From Ferrovibrio sp. (GTDB lineage Bacteria; Pseudomonadota; Alphaproteobacteria; Ferrovibrionales; Ferrovibrionaceae), in contig JAGOQS010000001.1 in assembly GCA_017991315.1 (NCBI GenBank), positions 806,001 through 870,000 of the forward strand: DNA of 64,000 nucleotides, in the 5' to 3' direction. The notes under the pieces were generated by a model. That model did no database searches and was not told the DNA's origin. It saw nothing but the letters and a program-made list of their open reading frames with translations. This document shows, in pieces, positions 47,157 to 60,293 of the stretch. The stretch's first letter is position 1; every line of letters starts with the position of its first letter. Made by a program: the position numbers and the translations under genes.

Positions 47157-47305
47157 GAGTACAAATCCTTGTTCTGCTTTTCTGGGTACTAGGCGCGGGG
47201 CGGAGCCAGTAGAAGGGGAAATAGTACTCTAGGCGGCATGGTCTAGGGGCGCTATGGCTAGATCGGGTGCCTTGGCGATCCAGCGATCCGGCGTTAGGAT
47301 GGGGG
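47157..47305. promoter_or_regulatory. divergent region SLC13 / URC genes
   Basis: These 149 bases must contain promoters in both directions. A GGATGGGGG stretch just before the ATG at 47306 can serve as the ribosome-binding site. No inverted repeat strong enough to name as an operator was found. Confidence 0.3.
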
Positions 47306-48595
47306 ATGAAGACCGAGACCGACCTGCCGGCCAAGAAGCCGGCAATCAAGCCCATCGTTCTCACCTCGCATCCCGGCGGCAGCGGACCGAAGCCCTTGCC
47401 CATCGACTGGGGTGCCGCCGATCCGCTACGCCGCGGCCCGATCATCGCGACCGTGCATACCGGCGAGGGCGCCGCCATCGCCGCAAAGAATGCCATTGGC
47501 ACCCATGCCGGTGCCTATGCGCTGTATCGCGCGCTGGCTATCGCCGCCGGGCAGCTCAAGGCCGATCACAAGCCCGATCTCACCAACACCGCGCCGGCCG
47601 AGGCCATCGGGCCGTTTCCGCAATGGGCCGATCCGGCGAAGATCGTGTCCATGGACCCGTTCGGCCACATGGTCAGCGAGGCCTATGCCGACCTGATCCG
47701 GCTCGGTGCCGATATCCGCCCGAGCATCGCGGTGACCAAGGCGCATATCAACATGCCTGAGTTGCTGGATGCCATGCGCGCTGGCCGCCTCAAGGCCGAT
47801 GGCGAAGTGCTGGCGGCGAATGGCGATGTGCGCGTCACCAAGGTCGCCATCGAGCCGGTATGGTGGCTGCCCGGCGTGGCGGCGCGATTCAAGATCAGCG
47901 AGACCGACTTGCGCCGCAATCTGTTCGAGCAGACCGCCGGCATGTTCCCGGAACTGGTGACGCGGCCCGATCTCAAGGTATTCCTGCCGCCGATCGGCGG
48001 CATGACGGTGTATCTGTTTGGCGATATCGCCAAGCTCGGCAAGCCGGAAACCCGCATCGCCTGCCGCATCCATGATGAATGCAACGGTTCCGACGTGTTC
48101 GGCTCCGATATCTGCACCTGCAGGCCTTACCTCGCCCATGGCATCGAAGTCTGCATCGAGATGGCGCAGCGGGGCGGCGTCGGCGTCATTGTCTATAACC
48201 GGAAGGAGGGCAGGGCGCTCGGCGAAGTGACCAAGTTCCTGGTCTACAATGCCCGCAAGCGTCAGGCCGGCGGCGACCGTGCCGAGGCTTATTTCGAGCG
48301 CACCGAGTGCGTTGCCGGCGTGCAGGACATGCGCTTCCAGGAATTGATGCCCGATGTGCTGCACTGGCTCGGCATCACCCGTGTCGACAAGCTGGTGTCG
48401 ATGAGCAATCTGAAATTCCAGCCGCTGGTGGATAGCGGCATCGAGGTGGTGGAGCGCATCCCGATCCCGGACGAATTGATCCCCGCCGATGCGCGGGTGG
48501 AAATGGATGCCAAGAAGGCGGCCGGCTATTTCACCGACAAGGTGCCCGATGCCGCCGAACTGAAGCAGAGCAAGGGCCGCCGGCTGGATGAGTGA
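47306..48595 (+). CDS. GTP cyclohydrolase II-like protein of uracil catabolism (URC1)
   Basis: The 429-aa protein has a C-terminal GTP cyclohydrolase II domain with the three zinc Cys in HDECNGSDVFGSDICTCRPY, the RACRIHDE segment and the arginine-rich EGRALGEVTKF loop, plus an N-terminal extension of about 200 residues that normal RibA does not have. The next genes are a DUF1688 protein and upp. That trio is the URC pathway known from the yeast Lachancea kluyveri and some bacteria, where URC1 opens the pyrimidine ring of a uridine nucleotide. Riboflavin synthesis is an unlikely role. Confidence 0.85.
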   Translation: MKTETDLPAKKPAIKPIVLTSHPGGSGPKPLPIDWGAADPLRRGPIIATVHTGEGAAIAAKNAIGTHAGAYALYRALAIAAGQLKADHKPDLTNTAPAEAIGPFPQWADPAKIVSMDPFGHMVSEAYADLIRLGADIRPSIAVTKAHINMPELLDAMRAGRLKADGEVLAANGDVRVTKVAIEPVWWLPGVAARFKISETDLRRNLFEQTAGMFPELVTRPDLKVFLPPIGGMTVYLFGDIAKLGKPETRIACRIHDECNGSDVFGSDICTCRPYLAHGIEVCIEMAQRGGVGVIVYNRKEGRALGEVTKFLVYNARKRQAGGDRAEAYFERTECVAGVQDMRFQELMPDVLHWLGITRVDKLVSMSNLKFQPLVDSGIEVVERIPIPDELIPADARVEMDAKKAAGYFTDKVPDAAELKQSKGRRLDE

Positions 48596-49808
48596 GTTGC
48601 TTGACTGGCTGCTCAGCCCGGTGGCGATCCGTGCCCGCGCCGAGCAGCTCTATGCCCATGTTGCTGCCGGCAAGTCGGCGTATTTCACGCTCGATGTCGG
48701 CCGGCTGGAAGCTGCGGCGGATTACGTCGCAGAGGTCATCCGCGCGAATTACCCCTCCTTGAAGATTCCCTATCACGCCCGCTGGCGCCATTTCGGCGAC
48801 CGCTGGGACAAGCTGGCGCCGCGTTTCCAGGGCATCCACCCGGATGAACTGGCGCGCATCCGTTTCGATCTCGCCGTGGTGTCGGTGCTGCTCGATGCCG
48901 GCGCGGGCGCGGCATGGAAATACGAGGAGCCGGGTACGGGCCAGGTGCTGGCGCGTTCGGAAGGCTTGGCGGTGGCCAGCCTGCATGCCTTCCAGAAGGG
49001 TGTGTTCTCGCGCCTGCCGGAAGCCTTGCCCTGCCGCGCCGATGCCGAAGGCCTGGAGCGTATCGCCACGGAGGATATCGCCCAGGCTTTCCAGGTGACG
49101 GCGGATAATCCGCTCGATGGCCTGGAAGGGCGCACTAAGCTGCTGCGCGATCTTGGCGCCGCATTACGCAAGAGCCCGGATTACTTCGGCCGTGCCGATG
49201 AGGTGCCGCGCATCGGTTTCCTGTTCGATCACCTGAAGGCGCAGGCGCGCGATGGCGTGCTGCCGGCGGATGCCATCCTCAAGGCGTTGCTGCGCGGCCT
49301 TGGCCCAGTCTGGCCGGGGCGGATCGAGTTCGAGGGCGTCAATCTTGGCGATTGCTGGCGCCATGCGGCGGCCATCGCGCCGGATGCCAGCAATGGCCTG
49401 GTGCCGTTCCACAAGCTGTCGCAATGGCTGGCCTATTCGCTGGTCGAGCCGCTGGAGGAGGCGGGTATCCGCGTCGCTGATCTGGATGCGCTGACCGGCC
49501 TGCCGGAATACCGCAATGGCGGCCTGTTCCTCGATCTTGGCGTGTTGCGCCTGAAGGATTCGGCCCTGGCCGCCGAGCGGCTGCCGCCAGCCCATGAGGC
49601 TGTCGTGGAATGGCGTGCCCTGACTGTGGTGTTGCTGGACCGCCTGGCCGATCCGCTACGCCGCCGCTTGGGCAAAACCCGAGCCGAGCTGCCGCTGGCA
49701 AGCCTGCTCGAAGGCGGCACCTGGGCCGCGGGACGGCGCATCGCCGCCGAGCGCCGGCCTGGCGGGCCGCCACCACTCAACATCATCAGCGATGGCACGG
49801 TTTTCTAA
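48588..49808 (+). CDS. DUF1688 protein, URC4-like
   Basis: The 406-aa protein ([63 protein letters not shown]) matches the DUF1688 family, which includes Urc4 of the uracil-catabolism pathway. Its biochemical role is thought to be a step between ring opening and release of urea and a C3 product. The ATG overlaps the URC1-like stop by 8 nt, showing tight coupling. Confidence 0.85.
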
Positions 49809-49821
49809 GGGAGTTAAGCGA

Positions 49822-50451
49822 ATGTCGAACGTGCATGTGATCGATCACCCGCTGGTGCAGCACAAGCTGACGCTGCTGCGCCGCAAGGAAGTGTCGACCG
49901 CCGAATTCCGTGGCCTGGTGCGCGAGGTCAGCCTGCTGATGGCCTATGAGGTGCTGCGCGACCTGCCGACCGAGCTGGTGAGCATTGAGACGCCGCTGGA
50001 GCAGATGCAGGCGCCGCTGCTGTTGGGCAAGAAGCTCTGCTTCGTCTCCATCCTGCGCGCTGGCAACGGCATTCTGGATGGCATGCTCGATCTGGTGCCT
50101 TCTGCCCGCGTCGGGCATGTCGGGCTCTACCGCGATCCCGCTACCCTGGTGCCGGTGGAGTATTACCTCAAGCTGCCCGACGATGTGAGCCAGCGCCTTG
50201 TCGTGGTGGTGGATCCGATGCTGGCCACCGGCCATTCCGCTGCGGCAGCAGTGTCCCGCCTGAAGCAGGCTGGTGCCACGCAGATCAAGTTTGTCTGCCT
50301 GCTCACCGTGCCGGAAGGCCTGCGCGTGTTCCATGACAGCCACCCGGACGTGCCGGTCTATACCGCCGCTGTGGACCGCCAGCTCGACGACCATGGCTAT
50401 ATCCGTCCCGGTCTCGGCGATGCCGGCGACCGGCTTTACGGCACCAAATAG
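49822..50451 (+). CDS. upp: uracil phosphoribosyltransferase
   Basis: The 209-aa enzyme converts uracil plus PRPP to UMP. Signatures are [36 protein letters not shown], the PRPP loop [17 protein letters not shown] and the uracil-binding [13 protein letters not shown]. Within the URC set it supplies the nucleotide that enters catabolism. The ATG at 49822 has AAGGGAG upstream, so a longer start at 49792 is not preferred. Confidence 0.95.
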
Positions 50452-51477: not shown

Positions 51478-51600
51478 CTCATGTGACGCACCCGCACGTG
51501 CCGATGGCCCCTGGCAGGTTATGCAACGACGAACGCGTCTCTTTTGGTGGCACAGCGCAAGCTGTGTCGGGTTCAGAGCCGGTCCGAGAGGGAGGTTTCG
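51478..51600 (+). ncRNA. speF-type leader of ornithine decarboxylase
   Basis: The leader from about 51478 to the start codon contains CACCTCATGTGACGCAC, then GGCCCCTGGCAGGTTATGC and ACGACGAACGCG, and a 6-bp hairpin CACAGC-GCAA-GCTGTG (51551-51566). From memory this pattern matches the speF RNA motif reported upstream of alphaproteobacterial ornithine decarboxylases. The exact boundary is uncertain; a covariance-model search would settle it. Confidence 0.6.
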
Positions 51601-51628
51601 ATGCTTGCAGCCAATGGTGGCCGCGTGA
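51521..51628 (+). CDS. 35-aa Arg-rich upstream ORF in the ornithine decarboxylase leader
   Basis: An ATG at 51521, 2 nt after GGCAGGTT, opens a 35-codon frame starting MQRRTRLFWW and rich in Arg, Trp and Cys. It ends at 51628, 28 nt inside the decarboxylase gene and in another frame. The conserved segments of the leader lie inside it. A regulatory peptide that senses arginine, ornithine or polyamines is a reasonable guess, but translation is unproven. Confidence 0.4.
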   Translation: MQRRTRLFWWHSASCVGFRAGPRGRFRCLQPMVAA

Positions 51629-52806
51629 AGACCCGTCTGCGAAATTCGCCCGTGAAGCGTTTTGAGCAGGGGCAGATCACTCCGAAGATTCAGAAGTTCC
51701 TCGCCGATTGCCAGGACACCGAGCCGTTCCTCGTGGTCGATGTCGATGTGGTTGAGCACAACTACCGCACGCTGCGCCGTTTGCTGCCGCTGGCCAAGGT
51801 GTTCTATGCCACCAAGGCGAACCCGGCTGAGGAAATCGTGCGCCGCCTGGCCGATCTCGGCTCCAGCTTCGATGTCGCCTCCACCGGCGAGATTGAGCTG
51901 TGCCTGAGCCAGGGCGTGACCGCCGACCGCATTTCCTATGGCTCGACCATCAAGAAGCGCAGCGATATCGCCGTGGCCTTCAACAAGGGTGTGCGCCTCT
52001 ATGCCTTCGACTCCGAAGCCGAGCTGCTGAAGCTGGCTGACGTGGCGCCGGGCTCGCGCGTGTTCTGCCGCGTGCTGATGGAGTGCGAGGGCGCCGAATG
52101 GCCGCTGTCGCGCAAGTTCGGCTGCTCGCCGCGCATGGCTGCGGATCTGCTGGTACAGGCGCGCCGTCTGGGCCTGGAGCCCTACGGCATCTCCTTCCAT
52201 GTCGGCTCGCAGCAGACCGATCTCGGCCAGTGGGACAAGGCTGTGGCCCAGGTGGCGCAGATGTTCACCATCCTGCAGGAAGCGGATGTGGAGCTGCGCA
52301 TGATCAACCTGGGCGGCGGCTTCCCGGCCCGCTATCGCTCGGACGTGCCGATGCTTGAGGCCTATGCCAAGGCGATCTCGGACGCGATGACGAAGCATTT
52401 CGGCAACAAGTTGCCGGAAATGATCGTCGAGCCGGGCCGTGGTCTGGTTGGCGATGCCGGCGTGATCCAGGCCGAGGTGGTGCTGATCTCGCGCAAGGAC
52501 TATGACGAGGACCGCCGCTGGGTCTATCTCGACATCGGCAAGTTCTCCGGCCTGGCCGAGACCATGGACGAGGCGATCAAGTACCGCCTGGTGACGCCGC
52601 GTGACGGCGGCCCCACCGGTCCGGTCTCGATCGCGGGTCCGACCTGCGATAGCGCCGACATCCTGTATGAGAAGGCTGACTACCAGATGCCGCTCGACCT
52701 CCAGGTCGGCGACAAGGTGCAGATCCTCTCGACCGGCGCCTACACCACCACCTACTCCTCGGTGGGCTTCAACGGCTTCCCGCCGCTGAAGAGCTACTGC
52801 ATCTAA
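51601..52806 (+). CDS. ornithine (lysine/ornithine) decarboxylase, fold type III
   Basis: The 401-aa PLP enzyme has the fold type III decarboxylase features: the PLP Lys in FYATKANPAEEI, HVGSQ, the glycine-rich INLGGGFPA and EPGRGLVGDAGV, and GPTCDSADIL, with the catalytic Cys of the second subunit. This type decarboxylates ornithine (some also lysine) to putrescine (cadaverine). ATG at 51601 follows GGGAGG. A speF-type leader and a 14-bp-stem hairpin terminator flank the gene, so it is a single-gene unit. Confidence 0.92.
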   Translation: MLAANGGRVKTRLRNSPVKRFEQGQITPKIQKFLADCQDTEPFLVVDVDVVEHNYRTLRRLLPLAKVFYATKANPAEEIVRRLADLGSSFDVASTGEIELCLSQGVTADRISYGSTIKKRSDIAVAFNKGVRLYAFDSEAELLKLADVAPGSRVFCRVLMECEGAEWPLSRKFGCSPRMAADLLVQARRLGLEPYGISFHVGSQQTDLGQWDKAVAQVAQMFTILQEADVELRMINLGGGFPARYRSDVPMLEAYAKAISDAMTKHFGNKLPEMIVEPGRGLVGDAGVIQAEVVLISRKDYDEDRRWVYLDIGKFSGLAETMDEAIKYRLVTPRDGGPTGPVSIAGPTCDSADILYEKADYQMPLDLQVGDKVQILSTGAYTTTYSSVGFNGFPPLKSYCI

Positions 52807-57006: not shown

Positions 57007-57128
57007 GAAAAATGTCTCATTTATGACGGGTTTCCCGGTCCCGTTTGGAGGGCCGTCCGGCGATTGCTAGGGCGGGCCGAACCGGCTATTTTCCGGCCCG
57101 ATTTTCCGCTTTCCGAAAAGGGCCGGCC

Positions 57129-58226
57129 ATGAAGGTCAACGGCGTAGCCTACCGCACGATTTGGGTCAATGACGACGGCTGGTCGGTCGGCATCATCGAC
57201 CAGACCGGGCAGCCGCATCGGTTCGTCACCACCAGCCTCAGCACCATGGAAGAGGCGGCGCATGCCATCAAGGCGATGATCGTGCGCGGCGCGCCGCTGA
57301 TCGGCGCCACCGGCGCCTATGGCCTGGCGCTGGCGATGCGCCATGATCCCTCCGATGCGGCGCTGGCCAAGGCCTATGAGGTGCTGGTCGAGACCCGCCC
57401 GACGGCGATCAACCTGCGCTGGGCGCTGGACCGGGTGCGCAAGGTGCTGGAGCCGCTGGTGCCGAAGGAGCGTGCCGCCGCCGCCTACAAGCTTGCTGCC
57501 GAGATCTGCGATGAGGATGTGGAGGTCTGCTCCAGCATCGGCAATTACGGCCTTGGCCTGATCCAGGCGATGCATGCCGAGACCGGCCGCTCGCGCCCGG
57601 TGAATATCCTCACCCATTGCAATGCCGGCTGGCTCGCCTGCGTCGACTGGGGCACAGCGCTGGCACCGATCTACAAGGCGCATGATGCCGGCATCCCGGT
57701 GCATGTCTGGGTCGACGAGACCCGGCCGCGCAATCAGGGCGCCTCGCTCACCGCCTGGGAACTGGCCAGCCATGGCGTGCCGCATACGCTGATCGTCGAC
57801 AATGCCGGCGGCCACCTGATGCAGCATGGCATGGTGGATTTCTGCATCGTCGGCACCGACCGCACCACGCGGCGCGGCGATGTCTGCAACAAGATCGGCA
57901 CCTACCTGAAGGCCCTGGCGGCGAAGGATAACGGCGTGCCGTTCTATGTCGCGCTGCCCAGTTCCACCATCGACTGGACGATTGCCGACGGCGTGCGCGA
58001 GATTCCCATTGAGGAACGTGCAGAGAGCGAAGTGACCGTGATGAGCGGCAAGACCGCTGCCGGCGAGATCGTTTCGGTGCGTGTTGCGCCGGATGCCACC
58101 CGTGCCGCCAATTATGGTTTTGACGTCACCCCGGCCCGTCTCGTCACCGGTCTGATTACCGAGCGCGGCATCTGCCCGGCCTCCGAGGCCGGCTTGGTCT
58201 CGCTCTTTCCCGAACACGCCCTTTAA
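57129..58226 (+). CDS. mtnA: methylthioribose-1-phosphate isomerase
   Basis: The 365-aa protein isomerises 5-methylthioribose-1-phosphate (or 5-deoxyribose-1-phosphate) to the ribulose form in SAM by-product salvage. Catalytic Cys164 (THCNAGWLA) and Asp244 ([18 protein letters not shown]) match the family pair. No mtnB, mtnC, mtnD or mtnK is near, but an aldolase-SDR fusion follows after 12 nt, which points to the aldolase branch known as the DHAP shunt. The ATG at 57129 is preferred over the longer frame from 57045. Confidence 0.93.
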
Positions 58227-58238
58227 GGAACCGCCGCG

Positions 58239-60293
58239 ATGAAGAATCTCTGGTCCGACCGCGACGCCAAGGCCGCCATCAAGCATTACGCCCTGCAGGG
58301 CGTGAATGAGGATCTGGCCATACGCACCTACACCACGCGGCTGCTCGGCGGCGTGCCCGCCCTGGTGCAGCATGGCGGTGGCAATACCTCGGTGAAGACC
58401 AAGATGCGCGACATCCTGGGCAATCCGGTGGACGTGCTGTGCGTGAAGGGCTCGGGCTGGGACATGGCGGTGATCGAGCCGCCGGGGCTGCCCGCCGTGC
58501 GGCTGAAGCCGCTGCAGGCGTTGATCGACCTCAAGGCGCTGACCGATGAGGACATGGTCAACGTACAGCGTTGCAACCTGCTGGATTCGACCTCGCCGAA
58601 TCCTTCGGTGGAAACCCTGTTCCATGCCTTCCTGCCGCACAAGTTCATCGACCATACCCATGCCGACGCGGTGCTGGCGCTGACCGATCAGCCCGATGGC
58701 ATCGAGCAGGCGAAGAAGCTCTACGGCAAGCGCATCGCCGTGGTGGAATACGAAATGCCGGGCTTCGGCCTGGCCAAGAAGGCGGCGGAAGCCTTCCGCA
58801 AGCAGCCCGATGCCGAGGGCTTGGTGCTGGTGAAGCATGGCATCTTCACCTGGGGCGAGACCGCCAAGCAGGCCTACGACCGCATGATCGAGTATGTCTC
58901 GATGGCTGAGGCGCGTCTGGCCAAGGGCAAGAAGACCGTGTTCGTCCAGGCCAAGCAGCCGAAGAAGATAGCGGCGCCGGAAGACGTAATGCCGATCCTG
59001 CGCGGCCTGCTGGCCCTGCCGGTCAATCCCGATGACGGCCAGTATGCCCGCTGGGTGTTTGATCGCCGCCAGAGCCCGGAAATCGATGCTTTCGTGAATG
59101 GCAAGGATGTGGCGCGCTACAGCCAGGCCGGCACGGTGACGCCGGACCACGTGATCCGCACCAAGCCCTGGCCGGTGATCCTGCCGGCACCCGAGGCCGG
59201 TAAGCTTGATGTTTTCGCGGCCGAAGCCAAAAAGGCGGTGGATGGCTATATCGCCAAGTACAAGGCCTATTTCGAGCGCAACAATGCTGTGGCGCAGCCG
59301 AAGAAGATCATGCTCGATCCGATGCCGCGCGCCCTGCTGGTGCCGGGCCTCGGCCTGATCGGCGTCGGCAAGTCGCGCAAGGATGCCAGCATCGCCGCCG
59401 ATATCGCGCAGACCGCCGTGGCGGTGATCACTCGCGCTGAGGCCATCGGCAAGTTCACCTCGATTTCCGAGCGCGATATCTTCGATGTCGAATACTGGTC
59501 GCTGGAGCAGGCCAAGCTCGGCAAGGGCGGTGAGAAGCCGCTGGCCCGGCAGGTTGTGGTGGTGACGGGTGGGGCAGGGGCCATCGGCGCCGCCACCGCC
59601 AAGGCCTTTGCGTCGGAAGGCGCCGAAGTGGCAGTGCTCGATCTCGATGGTGCCAAGGCCGCTGAGATCGCCAAGAAGCTCGGCGGTATCGGCCTTGCCT
59701 GCGATGTCACCAAGGAAGCCGACGTGCGCGCGGCCTTTGCCAAGGTGGCGGCGCATTTCGGCGGCGTCGATATCGTGGTGTCGAATGCCGGCAATGCCTG
59801 GGGCGGCAAGATCGGCGAAGTTTCCGACGCGCTGCTGCGCCAGAGTTTCGATCTCAATTTCTTCAGCCACCAGTATGTCGCCCAGGCGGCGGTGGCGATC
59901 ATGCTGAAGCAGAAGACCGGCGGCTGCCTGTTGTTCAACGCCTCCAAGCAGGCGGTGAATCCGGGCCCGGATTTCGGCCCCTATGGCCTGCCCAAGGCGG
60001 CGACGCTGTTCCTCTCGCGCCAGTATGCGCTCGACTATGGCGCGGCTGGCATCCGCTCCAGCGCGGTGAATGCCGACCGCATCCGCTCAGGGCTGCTCAC
60101 CGATGAGATGGTAGCGAAGCGTTCCAAGGCGCGCGGCGTGTCGGAGAAGGACTACATGTCCGGCAACCTACTCGGCCGCGAGGTCAAGGCCGCCGATGTG
60201 GCCCAGGCCTTCGTGCAGCTCGCCGTGGCGCAGAAGACCACCGGCGGCGTCGCCGTGGTCGATGGCGGCAATATCGCGGCGGCGTTGCGGTAA
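58239..60293 (+). CDS. class II aldolase fused to short-chain dehydrogenase
   Basis: The 684-aa fusion has an N-terminal class II (zinc) aldolase: HGGGNTS, Glu125 (PSVETLFHAF), His139 and His141 (DHTHADAV), and His200 (VKHGIFTWG). From about residue 438 it has a full SDR domain: TGGAGAIG (443-450), NAG (516-518), Ser569, Tyr582 and Lys586 (YGLPK). Related fusions act as rhamnulose-1-phosphate aldolase plus lactaldehyde dehydrogenase. Here no rhamnose gene is near and mtnA lies directly upstream, so it may split 5-methylthioribulose-1-phosphate or 5-deoxyribulose-1-phosphate and convert the aldehyde. Confidence 0.9.
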   Translation: MKNLWSDRDAKAAIKHYALQGVNEDLAIRTYTTRLLGGVPALVQHGGGNTSVKTKMRDILGNPVDVLCVKGSGWDMAVIEPPGLPAVRLKPLQALIDLKALTDEDMVNVQRCNLLDSTSPNPSVETLFHAFLPHKFIDHTHADAVLALTDQPDGIEQAKKLYGKRIAVVEYEMPGFGLAKKAAEAFRKQPDAEGLVLVKHGIFTWGETAKQAYDRMIEYVSMAEARLAKGKKTVFVQAKQPKKIAAPEDVMPILRGLLALPVNPDDGQYARWVFDRRQSPEIDAFVNGKDVARYSQAGTVTPDHVIRTKPWPVILPAPEAGKLDVFAAEAKKAVDGYIAKYKAYFERNNAVAQPKKIMLDPMPRALLVPGLGLIGVGKSRKDASIAADIAQTAVAVITRAEAIGKFTSISERDIFDVEYWSLEQAKLGKGGEKPLARQVVVVTGGAGAIGAATAKAFASEGAEVAVLDLDGAKAAEIAKKLGGIGLACDVTKEADVRAAFAKVAAHFGGVDIVVSNAGNAWGGKIGEVSDALLRQSFDLNFFSHQYVAQAAVAIMLKQKTGGCLLFNASKQAVNPGPDFGPYGLPKAATLFLSRQYALDYGAAGIRSSAVNADRIRSGLLTDEMVAKRSKARGVSEKDYMSGNLLGREVKAADVAQAFVQLAVAQKTTGGVAVVDGGNIAAALR

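Follow-up and report, generated by a model that had tools for sequence, protein, structure and literature searches.

A gene for a class II aldolase fused to a short-chain dehydrogenase (SDR) directly follows mtnA in a 64,000-nucleotide stretch of Ferrovibrio sp. DNA (GCA_017991315.1, contig JAGOQS010000001.1, positions 806,001 to 870,000; hereafter the window). Judged from sequence and genome context, the fusion protein is very probably the terminal enzyme of the dihydroxyacetone phosphate (DHAP) shunt for 5'-methylthioadenosine (MTA) and probably 5'-deoxyadenosine. This assignment draws on features that can be read in the sequences themselves: the genes, their domains and catalytic residues, the operon arrangements, the near-exclusion between the fusion and the single-domain aldolase Ald2, and the absence of rhizobial rhamnose isomerase, mtnD-family, and RuBisCO-like matches from a second genome of the same species. 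In the proposed route, MtnP would phosphorolyse the nucleoside (MTA or 5'-deoxyadenosine), MtnA would isomerise the 1-phosphate to 5-methylthioribulose-1-phosphate (or 5-deoxyribulose-1-phosphate), the aldolase half of the fusion would cleave this product to DHAP and an aldehyde, either 2-(methylthio)acetaldehyde or acetaldehyde, which the SDR half, of the NAD(H) type, would then remove. An earlier reading of the window, made from the sequence only, had suggested a one-polypeptide DHAP shunt; genome context supports the pathway but not the single polypeptide, because MtnP or the kinase MtnK, and MtnA, would also be needed.

The mtnA–fusion locus

57129..58226 (57129–58223 plus stop), + strand: mtnA, S-methyl-5-thioribose-1-phosphate isomerase, 365 amino acids (TIGR00512)
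58239..60293 (58239–60290 plus stop), + strand: bifunctional class II aldolase/SDR fusion of the NF006192 type, 684 amino acids
58239..58922, + strand: N-terminal class II aldolase domain, residues 1–228
58923..59528, + strand: middle region between the aldolase and the SDR, residues 229–430, from the secondary structure of the predicted model
59529..60290, + strand: C-terminal SDR domain, residues 431–684

The neighbourhood of mtnA and an aldolase–SDR fusion, as first described, was borne out by profile matches and by a gap of only 12 nt between the two genes on the same strand (+). The mtnA product scored 410 bits against TIGR00512 (cut-off 279) and stayed below the cut-off of the competing ribose-1,5-bisphosphate isomerase model TIGR00511 (149.8 versus 314.1), and the fusion matched NF006192, "bifunctional aldolase/short-chain dehydrogenase", from residue 1 to 684 (1062.3, cut-off 639). 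Pfam placed Aldolase_II at residues 41–225 and adh_short at residues 438–618, and the AlphaFold2 model of the fusion had a pLDDT of 88.5 and a pTM of 0.89. The codon-position GC content of both frames was of the coding type (83–85% at position 3). An antisense open frame of 949 amino acids over both genes (57021–59870, minus strand), in which GC content is highest at the first codon position, was rejected as spurious, and no RNA element was matched between 54000 and 62000 at the Rfam gathering threshold. A chance neighbourhood was also rejected, because the mtnA–fusion pair persists where the remaining window genes are lost (e.g., L045, L047, L048, and L051).

Two types of fusion and the rhamnose question

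Fusions were found (E ≤ 1e-60) in 65 of 289 genomes of the class and were divided by their identity to the Ferrovibrio protein. Type A (46–100%, i.e., at least 46%) occurred in 54 genomes, including the Ferrovibrio genome and a second genome of the same species, and type B (32–37%) in 13, of which 11 lacked type A. The same architecture is known from RhaEW, in which rhamnulose-1-phosphate aldolase is joined to lactaldehyde dehydrogenase and for which biochemically proven proteins are described (PMC3870299); the Ferrovibrio fusion also matched the RhaEW model TIGR02632 (RhaD_aldol-ADH) with 468.4 bits. It nevertheless seems scarcely credible that this fusion is a RhaEW that adjoins mtnA by accident. 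Its TIGR02632 score lies below the cut-off of 567.75, and the rhamnose-type fusion L032 scored 1086. The rhizobial L-rhamnose isomerase (TIGR02629) was present in all 11 type-B-only genomes, adjoining the fusion in nine, versus 0/54 type A genomes (E. coli-type RhaA was not searched), so that the type A genomes did not show this sign of rhamnose genes, which the sequence-only reading had named as evidence that would speak against it. In a tree of 69 proteins, a branch with a support of 99 split off 65 rows (type A plus L029 and L181), and the three rhamnose rows grouped together with a support of 100. For this tree, proteins shorter than 600 amino acids or with stops were left out; 159 were kept, 127 after the removal of identical sequences, and 69 after an 82% identity filter.

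The isomerase distribution and the tree together indicate a RhaEW-like nature for the greater part of type B, whereas type A appears to be something else. Rhamnose catabolism as the role of type A was rejected on these two grounds, on the TIGR02632 cut-off, and on residues Glu125 and Asn540, which differ from those of all 12 aligned rhamnose-type proteins. A further aldolase–SDR fusion (34–37% identical) was observed in L074:3922-8420 (G186) and L075 (G265). In L074, genes for a UPF0261 protein and an FGGY xylulokinase-like protein flank the fusion, mtn genes were not observed in that stretch, and the rhizobial rhamnose isomerase was not found in the G186 and G265 genomes; these fusions possibly belong to another sugar pathway.

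Linkage of the type A fusion to mtnA, mtnP, and mtnK

Type A fusions co-occur strongly with mtnA, a point that the sequence-only reading had proposed to check in other genomes. mtnA was present in 52 of the 54 type A genomes versus 89 of the 235 other genomes of the class (Fisher p = 1.4e-16, kinship ignored), and in just one of the 11 type-B-only genomes. The 89 may include proteins other than MtnA, since some of these matches show an identity of only about 35% (G170 and G250). It lay upstream of the type A fusion on the same strand within 250 nt in 25/54 genomes and at 0.6–1.7 kb in four more. In another sample, of 25 fusion-bearing genomes that included the Ferrovibrio genome, 18 had mtnA no further than 1.5 kb from the fusion. 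Among the nearest named loci (the best 80 of 578, 70 of which have more than 1.5 kb of upstream sequence), mtnA or mtnP was found within 6 kb of the fusion in 26, with mtnA in 19 and mtnP in 16, always upstream and on the same strand. The mtn-linked rows made up 38/65 of the type A clade rows and were spread over its subclades, and the mtn label required 16 changes on the tree versus 22.8 in shuffles, the label "none" being a lower bound, as many loci have short flanks. Because the linked rows are scattered in this way, the linkage would be either ancient, with frequent losses, or the outcome of several gains.

Linkage to mtn genes also recurred with different gene partners. Of 257 plasmid records with a fusion match, eight loci were examined, and in five (Shinella, Pararhizobium, Mariluticola, Ensifer, and R. 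rosettiformans) mtnK and mtnA were clustered with the fusion in the order sugar-binding regulator, fusion, sugar ABC transporter, mtnK, mtnA. The sugar-binding domain of the regulator that precedes the fusion was typed as PF04198 in L182 and L184, and a transketolase-type gene is annotated after mtnA, inside the stretch examined, in Pararhizobium, Mariluticola, Ensifer, and R. rosettiformans (L183–L186, Hyphomicrobiales plasmids). Tistrella has mtnP–mtnA–fusion, and Gemmatirosa kalamazoonensis has mtnK–mtnA–fusion, in which mtnK scored 498 against TIGR01767 (cut-off 275). In G365, from another class of the phylum, the order is fusion–mtnP–apt–mtnA, where apt is the adenine phosphoribosyltransferase gene; this fusion is 36% identical and belongs to the NCBI model NF006196.

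Exchange with an Ald2-like aldolase

The last position of the operon is occupied either by the fusion or by a single-domain aldolase: mtnP–apt–mtnA–fusion was found in L051, L066, and L067, and mtnP–apt–mtnA–ald2 in L076, L077, and L078. An MTA phosphorylase (MTAP) gene lies upstream of mtnA in several relatives, often with apt between them (typed by profile were the Ferrovibrio MTAP, the L051 MTAP and apt, and the L069 and L046 MTAPs), and in L046, L068, L069, and L070 the phosphorylase gene is upstream of the fusion and mtnA is not in the stretch. The single-domain aldolases of L078, L079, and L080 are FucA-like and below the mtnB cut-off, and in at least 20 of 30 control genomes, counted by eye, a single-domain aldolase adjoins mtnA.

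This exchange was reflected in the counts over the 141 mtnA-bearing genomes (52 with the type A fusion and 89 controls). With the aldolase of L078, a relative, as the Ald2-like probe, a match at E ≤ 1e-40 was found in 2/52 genomes with the fusion (G192 and G128) and in 80/89 without it. At E ≤ 1e-20, the counts were 8/52 and 80/89, the six extra matches being 32–38% identical. Because the fusion state and the Ald2 state both occur inside six families (f30, f65, f69, f74, f75, and f104), common descent cannot by itself account for the pattern. Some points limit the weight of this near-exclusion: its Fisher p of 2.9e-26 at E ≤ 1e-40 ignores kinship, the 1e-40 threshold was chosen after the scores were seen, neither aldolase was found in nine of the 141 genomes and both were found in two, and G046 has a type A fusion and an Ald2-like hit with no mtnA.

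Exceptions and the possibility of another substrate

Several gene arrangements weigh against a general role of the fusion in the shunt. mtnA did not directly adjoin the fusion in 29/54 type A genomes, and in 25/54 it was beyond 1.7 kb (on the same contig but far in two, on another contig in 21, and undetected in two). In two of the genomes where mtnA is near, other genes stand between it and the fusion: two single-domain SDR genes in L071:6738-8169 (G070) and a guanylate cyclase gene in L072:6645-7979 (G088). The mtn label on the tree needs at least seven changes, forced by the starred branches. In the Reyranella clade (L120:3488-8960 and relatives), the fusion is found with a phosphoribosyltransferase, an MDR dehydrogenase, a TctC receptor, and a TauD dioxygenase, and the L120 stretch contains neither mtnA nor mtnP. 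The R. leguminosarum fusion (L181, 54% identity) lies beside glpD and a sugar ABC transporter, with no mtn genes there, and perhaps has a different substrate; many of the 257 plasmid records are from Rhizobium, outside the eight examined. Among 20 further stretches, mtn genes were found in five (L218, L219, L220, L231, and L232), apt alone in L224, and neither in 14; outside the class, mtn genes occurred in 1/13 of these stretches.

The R. leguminosarum and Reyranella contexts and the 14 stretches without mtn or apt genes would be accommodated if the substrate of the fusion were a different sugar phosphate that yields DHAP, the link with mtnA being secondary. We regard this as highly unlikely for the Ferrovibrio protein, given that the fusion is repeatedly linked to mtnA, mtnP, or mtnK, in varying combinations, in Alphaproteobacteria, in Gemmatirosa, and in another class, and that the fusion and Ald2 nearly exclude each other. 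In L181, we also observed that another glycerol-3-phosphate dehydrogenase gene adjoins and that the fusion also exceeds the NF006195 cut-off.

Pathway genes in the Ferrovibrio genome

Genes or candidate genes for the other steps of a DHAP shunt were found in Ferrovibrio. Besides mtnA, the genome (G000, 72.6% complete) carries mtnP, the MTA phosphorylase gene, at C2:413129-413845, approximately 450 kb away (TIGR01694, 306.9, cut-off 274.85), and the same-species genome (G272, 99% complete) carries the corresponding gene; the aldolase step would be represented by a class II aldolase with intact predicted metal and catalytic residues. The Ald2-like probe had no match at 1e-20 in G000, G272, or G005, and we propose that the Ald2 step is performed by the fusion in its place.

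The sequence-only reading had noted that mtnB, mtnC, and mtnD were absent nearby. For mtnD, the absence extends beyond the neighbourhood, as no dioxygenase of this family (acireductone dioxygenase) was matched in G000, G272, or G005, and for mtnB it holds in G272; mtnC was not searched. Of the two PF00596 proteins in G272, one is the fusion; the other is of the PRK07044 type, "aldolase II superfamily protein" (318.6, cut-off 207), and had no mtnB match at 1e-10. G289, G078, G144, and G131 have one PF00596 match each, which was taken as the fusion, although these rows were not among the matches listed. The classical methionine salvage pathway is thus not supported in Ferrovibrio, neither mtnD nor mtnB having been found. 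The MTA–isoprenoid shunt is not supported either, because no RuBisCO-like protein (PF00016) was matched in G000, G272, or G005; a RuBisCO-family match was present in 12/54 fusion genomes. The absence of mtnD is not a mark of the fusion, and to that extent does not favour our reading, because mtnD (> 90 bits) is about as rare in controls (3/30 mtnA genomes without the fusion) as in fusion genomes (4/50).

The same set of genes could serve only the disposal of 5'-deoxyadenosine, the by-product of radical-SAM enzymes, and not the salvage of MTA sulfur. The drdK–drdI–drdA system, which uses the same kinds of enzymes on 5-deoxyribose according to PMC6079011, lends this idea some support, but we consider it unlikely: the first enzyme here is an MTAP-type phosphorylase, and the known shunt handles both MTA and 5'-deoxyadenosine, as stated in PMC10986504. 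The two roles cannot be separated by sequence, and the reading that we prefer, a shunt for MTA and probably 5'-deoxyadenosine, includes both.

Two other groups of genes in the window may be mentioned. A gene for a protein of the ornithine/diaminopimelate decarboxylase family (51544–52806) lies approximately 4.3 kb upstream of mtnA, and such a gene is near mtnA in related genomes too; polyamine synthesis is one source of MTA. Genes for a GTP cyclohydrolase II-like protein, a DUF1688 protein, and uracil phosphoribosyltransferase follow in series at 47267–50451, which we take to be the URC pyrimidine-degradation set.

Catalytic residues and the direction of the redox step

The residues were compared over 63 type A rows, from which L030–L032 and L074 (other types), L029, and L181 were excluded, and over 12 rhamnose-type rows, one of which (L250 of G530) comes from a genome whose rhamnose isomerase status was not checked.

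58611..58613, + strand: Glu125, presumed catalytic acid/base; Glu in 63/63 of its own type, Asp in 12/12 of the rhamnose type
58653..58661, + strand: His139-x-His141, presumed metal ligands; conserved in 63/63 and 12/12
58836..58838, + strand: His200, presumed third metal ligand; conserved in 63/63 and 12/12
59640..59642, + strand: Asp468, at the end of SDR strand 463–468 (strand from the model), presumed NAD(H)-type position; Asp in 63/63 and 12/12
59856..59858, + strand: Asn540 of the SDR tetrad; Asn in 63/63, Leu in 12/12 of the rhamnose type
59943..59996, + strand: Ser569, Tyr582, and Lys586, SDR catalytic residues; Ser in 62/63 (Thr in one), Tyr and Lys in 63/63

The roles of Glu125, His139, His141, and His200 are assumed by analogy with class II aldolases, and the NAD(H)-type position of Asp468 presumes the usual cofactor rule of SDRs. 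The residues claimed by the sequence-only reading are in place: the presumed metal ligands (His139, His141, and His200) and Glu125 are the same in all 63 aligned type A proteins, the Ferrovibrio protein included, and the complete SDR domain (TGGxGxIG, Ser569, Tyr582/Lys586) is present in the fusion, which has the Asn540-Ser569-Tyr582-Lys586 tetrad and the glycine-rich loop T443-G444..G450 of a classical SDR. A structure search with the model was dominated by the SDR half, with no PDB chain spanning both halves among the matches listed, and a PDB sequence search yielded 3m4r (a T. acidophilum N-terminal domain) and SDRs.

Class II aldolases cleave their substrates through a metal-bound enediolate with the help of an acid/base residue. 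In the fusion, cleavage would occur at the His139/His141/His200 metal site with Glu125 as the acid/base, followed by hydride transfer at Asn540-Ser569-Tyr582-Lys586 with NAD(H); the identity of the substrate and the coupling of the two halves are what we infer. As to the direction of the second step, we lean slightly towards the reduction of the aldehyde to the alcohol by the SDR half, because the canonical Asn-Ser-Tyr-Lys tetrad is present here, whereas the rhamnose type, the studied members of which oxidise lactaldehyde, has Leu in the place of Asn. This lean is opposed by the C. aurantiacus RhaEW, which oxidised and did not reduce its aldehyde, worked with NAD+ but not with NADH, and gave DHAP only when NAD+ was present (PMC3870299). 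By the same example, the DHAP shunt may operate with an SDR that uses NAD+ and turns the aldehyde oxidatively into 2-(methylthio)acetate or acetate, the aldol cleavage depending on that step, and Asp468 is common to both fusion types. We give this possibility a little less than an even chance, considering that the tetrad differs from that of the rhamnose type and that 2-(methylthio)ethanol is the in vivo product of the shunt in R. palustris, which uses Ald2 (PMC5893883). Because the RhaEW oxidation and the R. palustris alcohol product pull in opposite ways, the preference for reduction is left at a slight lean. A bolder version, which appears to us somewhat unlikely, is that of an obligately coupled enzyme in which the (methylthio)acetaldehyde is reduced by the SDR with NADH where it forms and none is set free, with Glu125 and Asn540 as the switch relative to the rhamnose fusions and with repeated exchange with Ald2 at the last operon position.

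Comparison with known systems

The DHAP shunt and its relatives have been described (PMC10986504, PMC12632272, PMC5893883, PMC6079011, and PMC6302742), and the accessible portions of these five papers contain no mention of a fused aldolase–dehydrogenase in the shunt. No report of such a fusion in MTA salvage, or of the biochemistry of the clade, was found in the openly licensed PMC literature, and an earlier mention elsewhere is possible. For R. palustris, PMC5893883 goes no further than a "putative alcohol dehydrogenase" for the aldehyde-reducing enzyme of the shunt, and the fusion is a concrete candidate for the shunt dehydrogenase. If the assignment is correct, approximately one-third of the mtnA-bearing genomes in the sampled class (52/141) would use the fusion, and for this reason a pathway other than rhamnose catabolism would become assignable to a family named only "bifunctional aldolase/short-chain dehydrogenase". 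With an Ald2-like aldolase and the fusion replacing each other at one operon position, the system would also lend itself well to asking why enzymes become fused.

Within NCBIfam, the fusion is a full-length member of NF006192 (PRK08324.1-6), the name of which gives no substrate or pathway; for a large share of this model we propose the shunt described here. It shares with the drdK–drdI–drdA trio for 5-deoxyribose disposal in B. thuringiensis the logic of kinase, isomerase, and aldolase, but differs in that the trio has the fuculose-1-phosphate-aldolase-like DrdA, whereas a phosphorylase (Ferrovibrio) or a kinase (rhizobia) and a fused SDR are found here. With RhaEW (YuxG of B. subtilis and Caur_2283), it shares the combination of a class II aldolase and an SDR, with 32–37% identity to the rhamnose-type fusions of the class, through which the comparison was made. 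It differs from RhaEW in its linkage to mtnA, mtnP, or mtnK and not to rhamnose genes, in Glu125 for Asp and Asn540 for Leu, and in its TIGR02632 score below the cut-off. RhaEW orthologs were stated to occur always within rha loci (Rodionova et al., PMC3870299), and the type A fusions fall outside this statement. In the DHAP shunt of R. rubrum, R. palustris, and E. coli ATCC 25922, which consists of mtnP (or a nucleosidase plus mtnK), mtnA, and ald2, the upstream genes are the same, the operons are similar, and the aldolase step is of class II with DHAP as a product, which for the fusion is our deduction; Ald2 there is a separate class II aldolase, whereas here a RhaE-type aldolase is fused to an SDR. 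The sequence-only reading had regarded the fusion as a new enzyme arrangement for the pathway; the pathway assignment is new, whereas for the architecture itself there is a precedent in rhamnose catabolism (PMC3870299). What is well supported is, therefore, a new pathway assignment for a widespread clade of proteins built from ordinary domains in a known fold combination.

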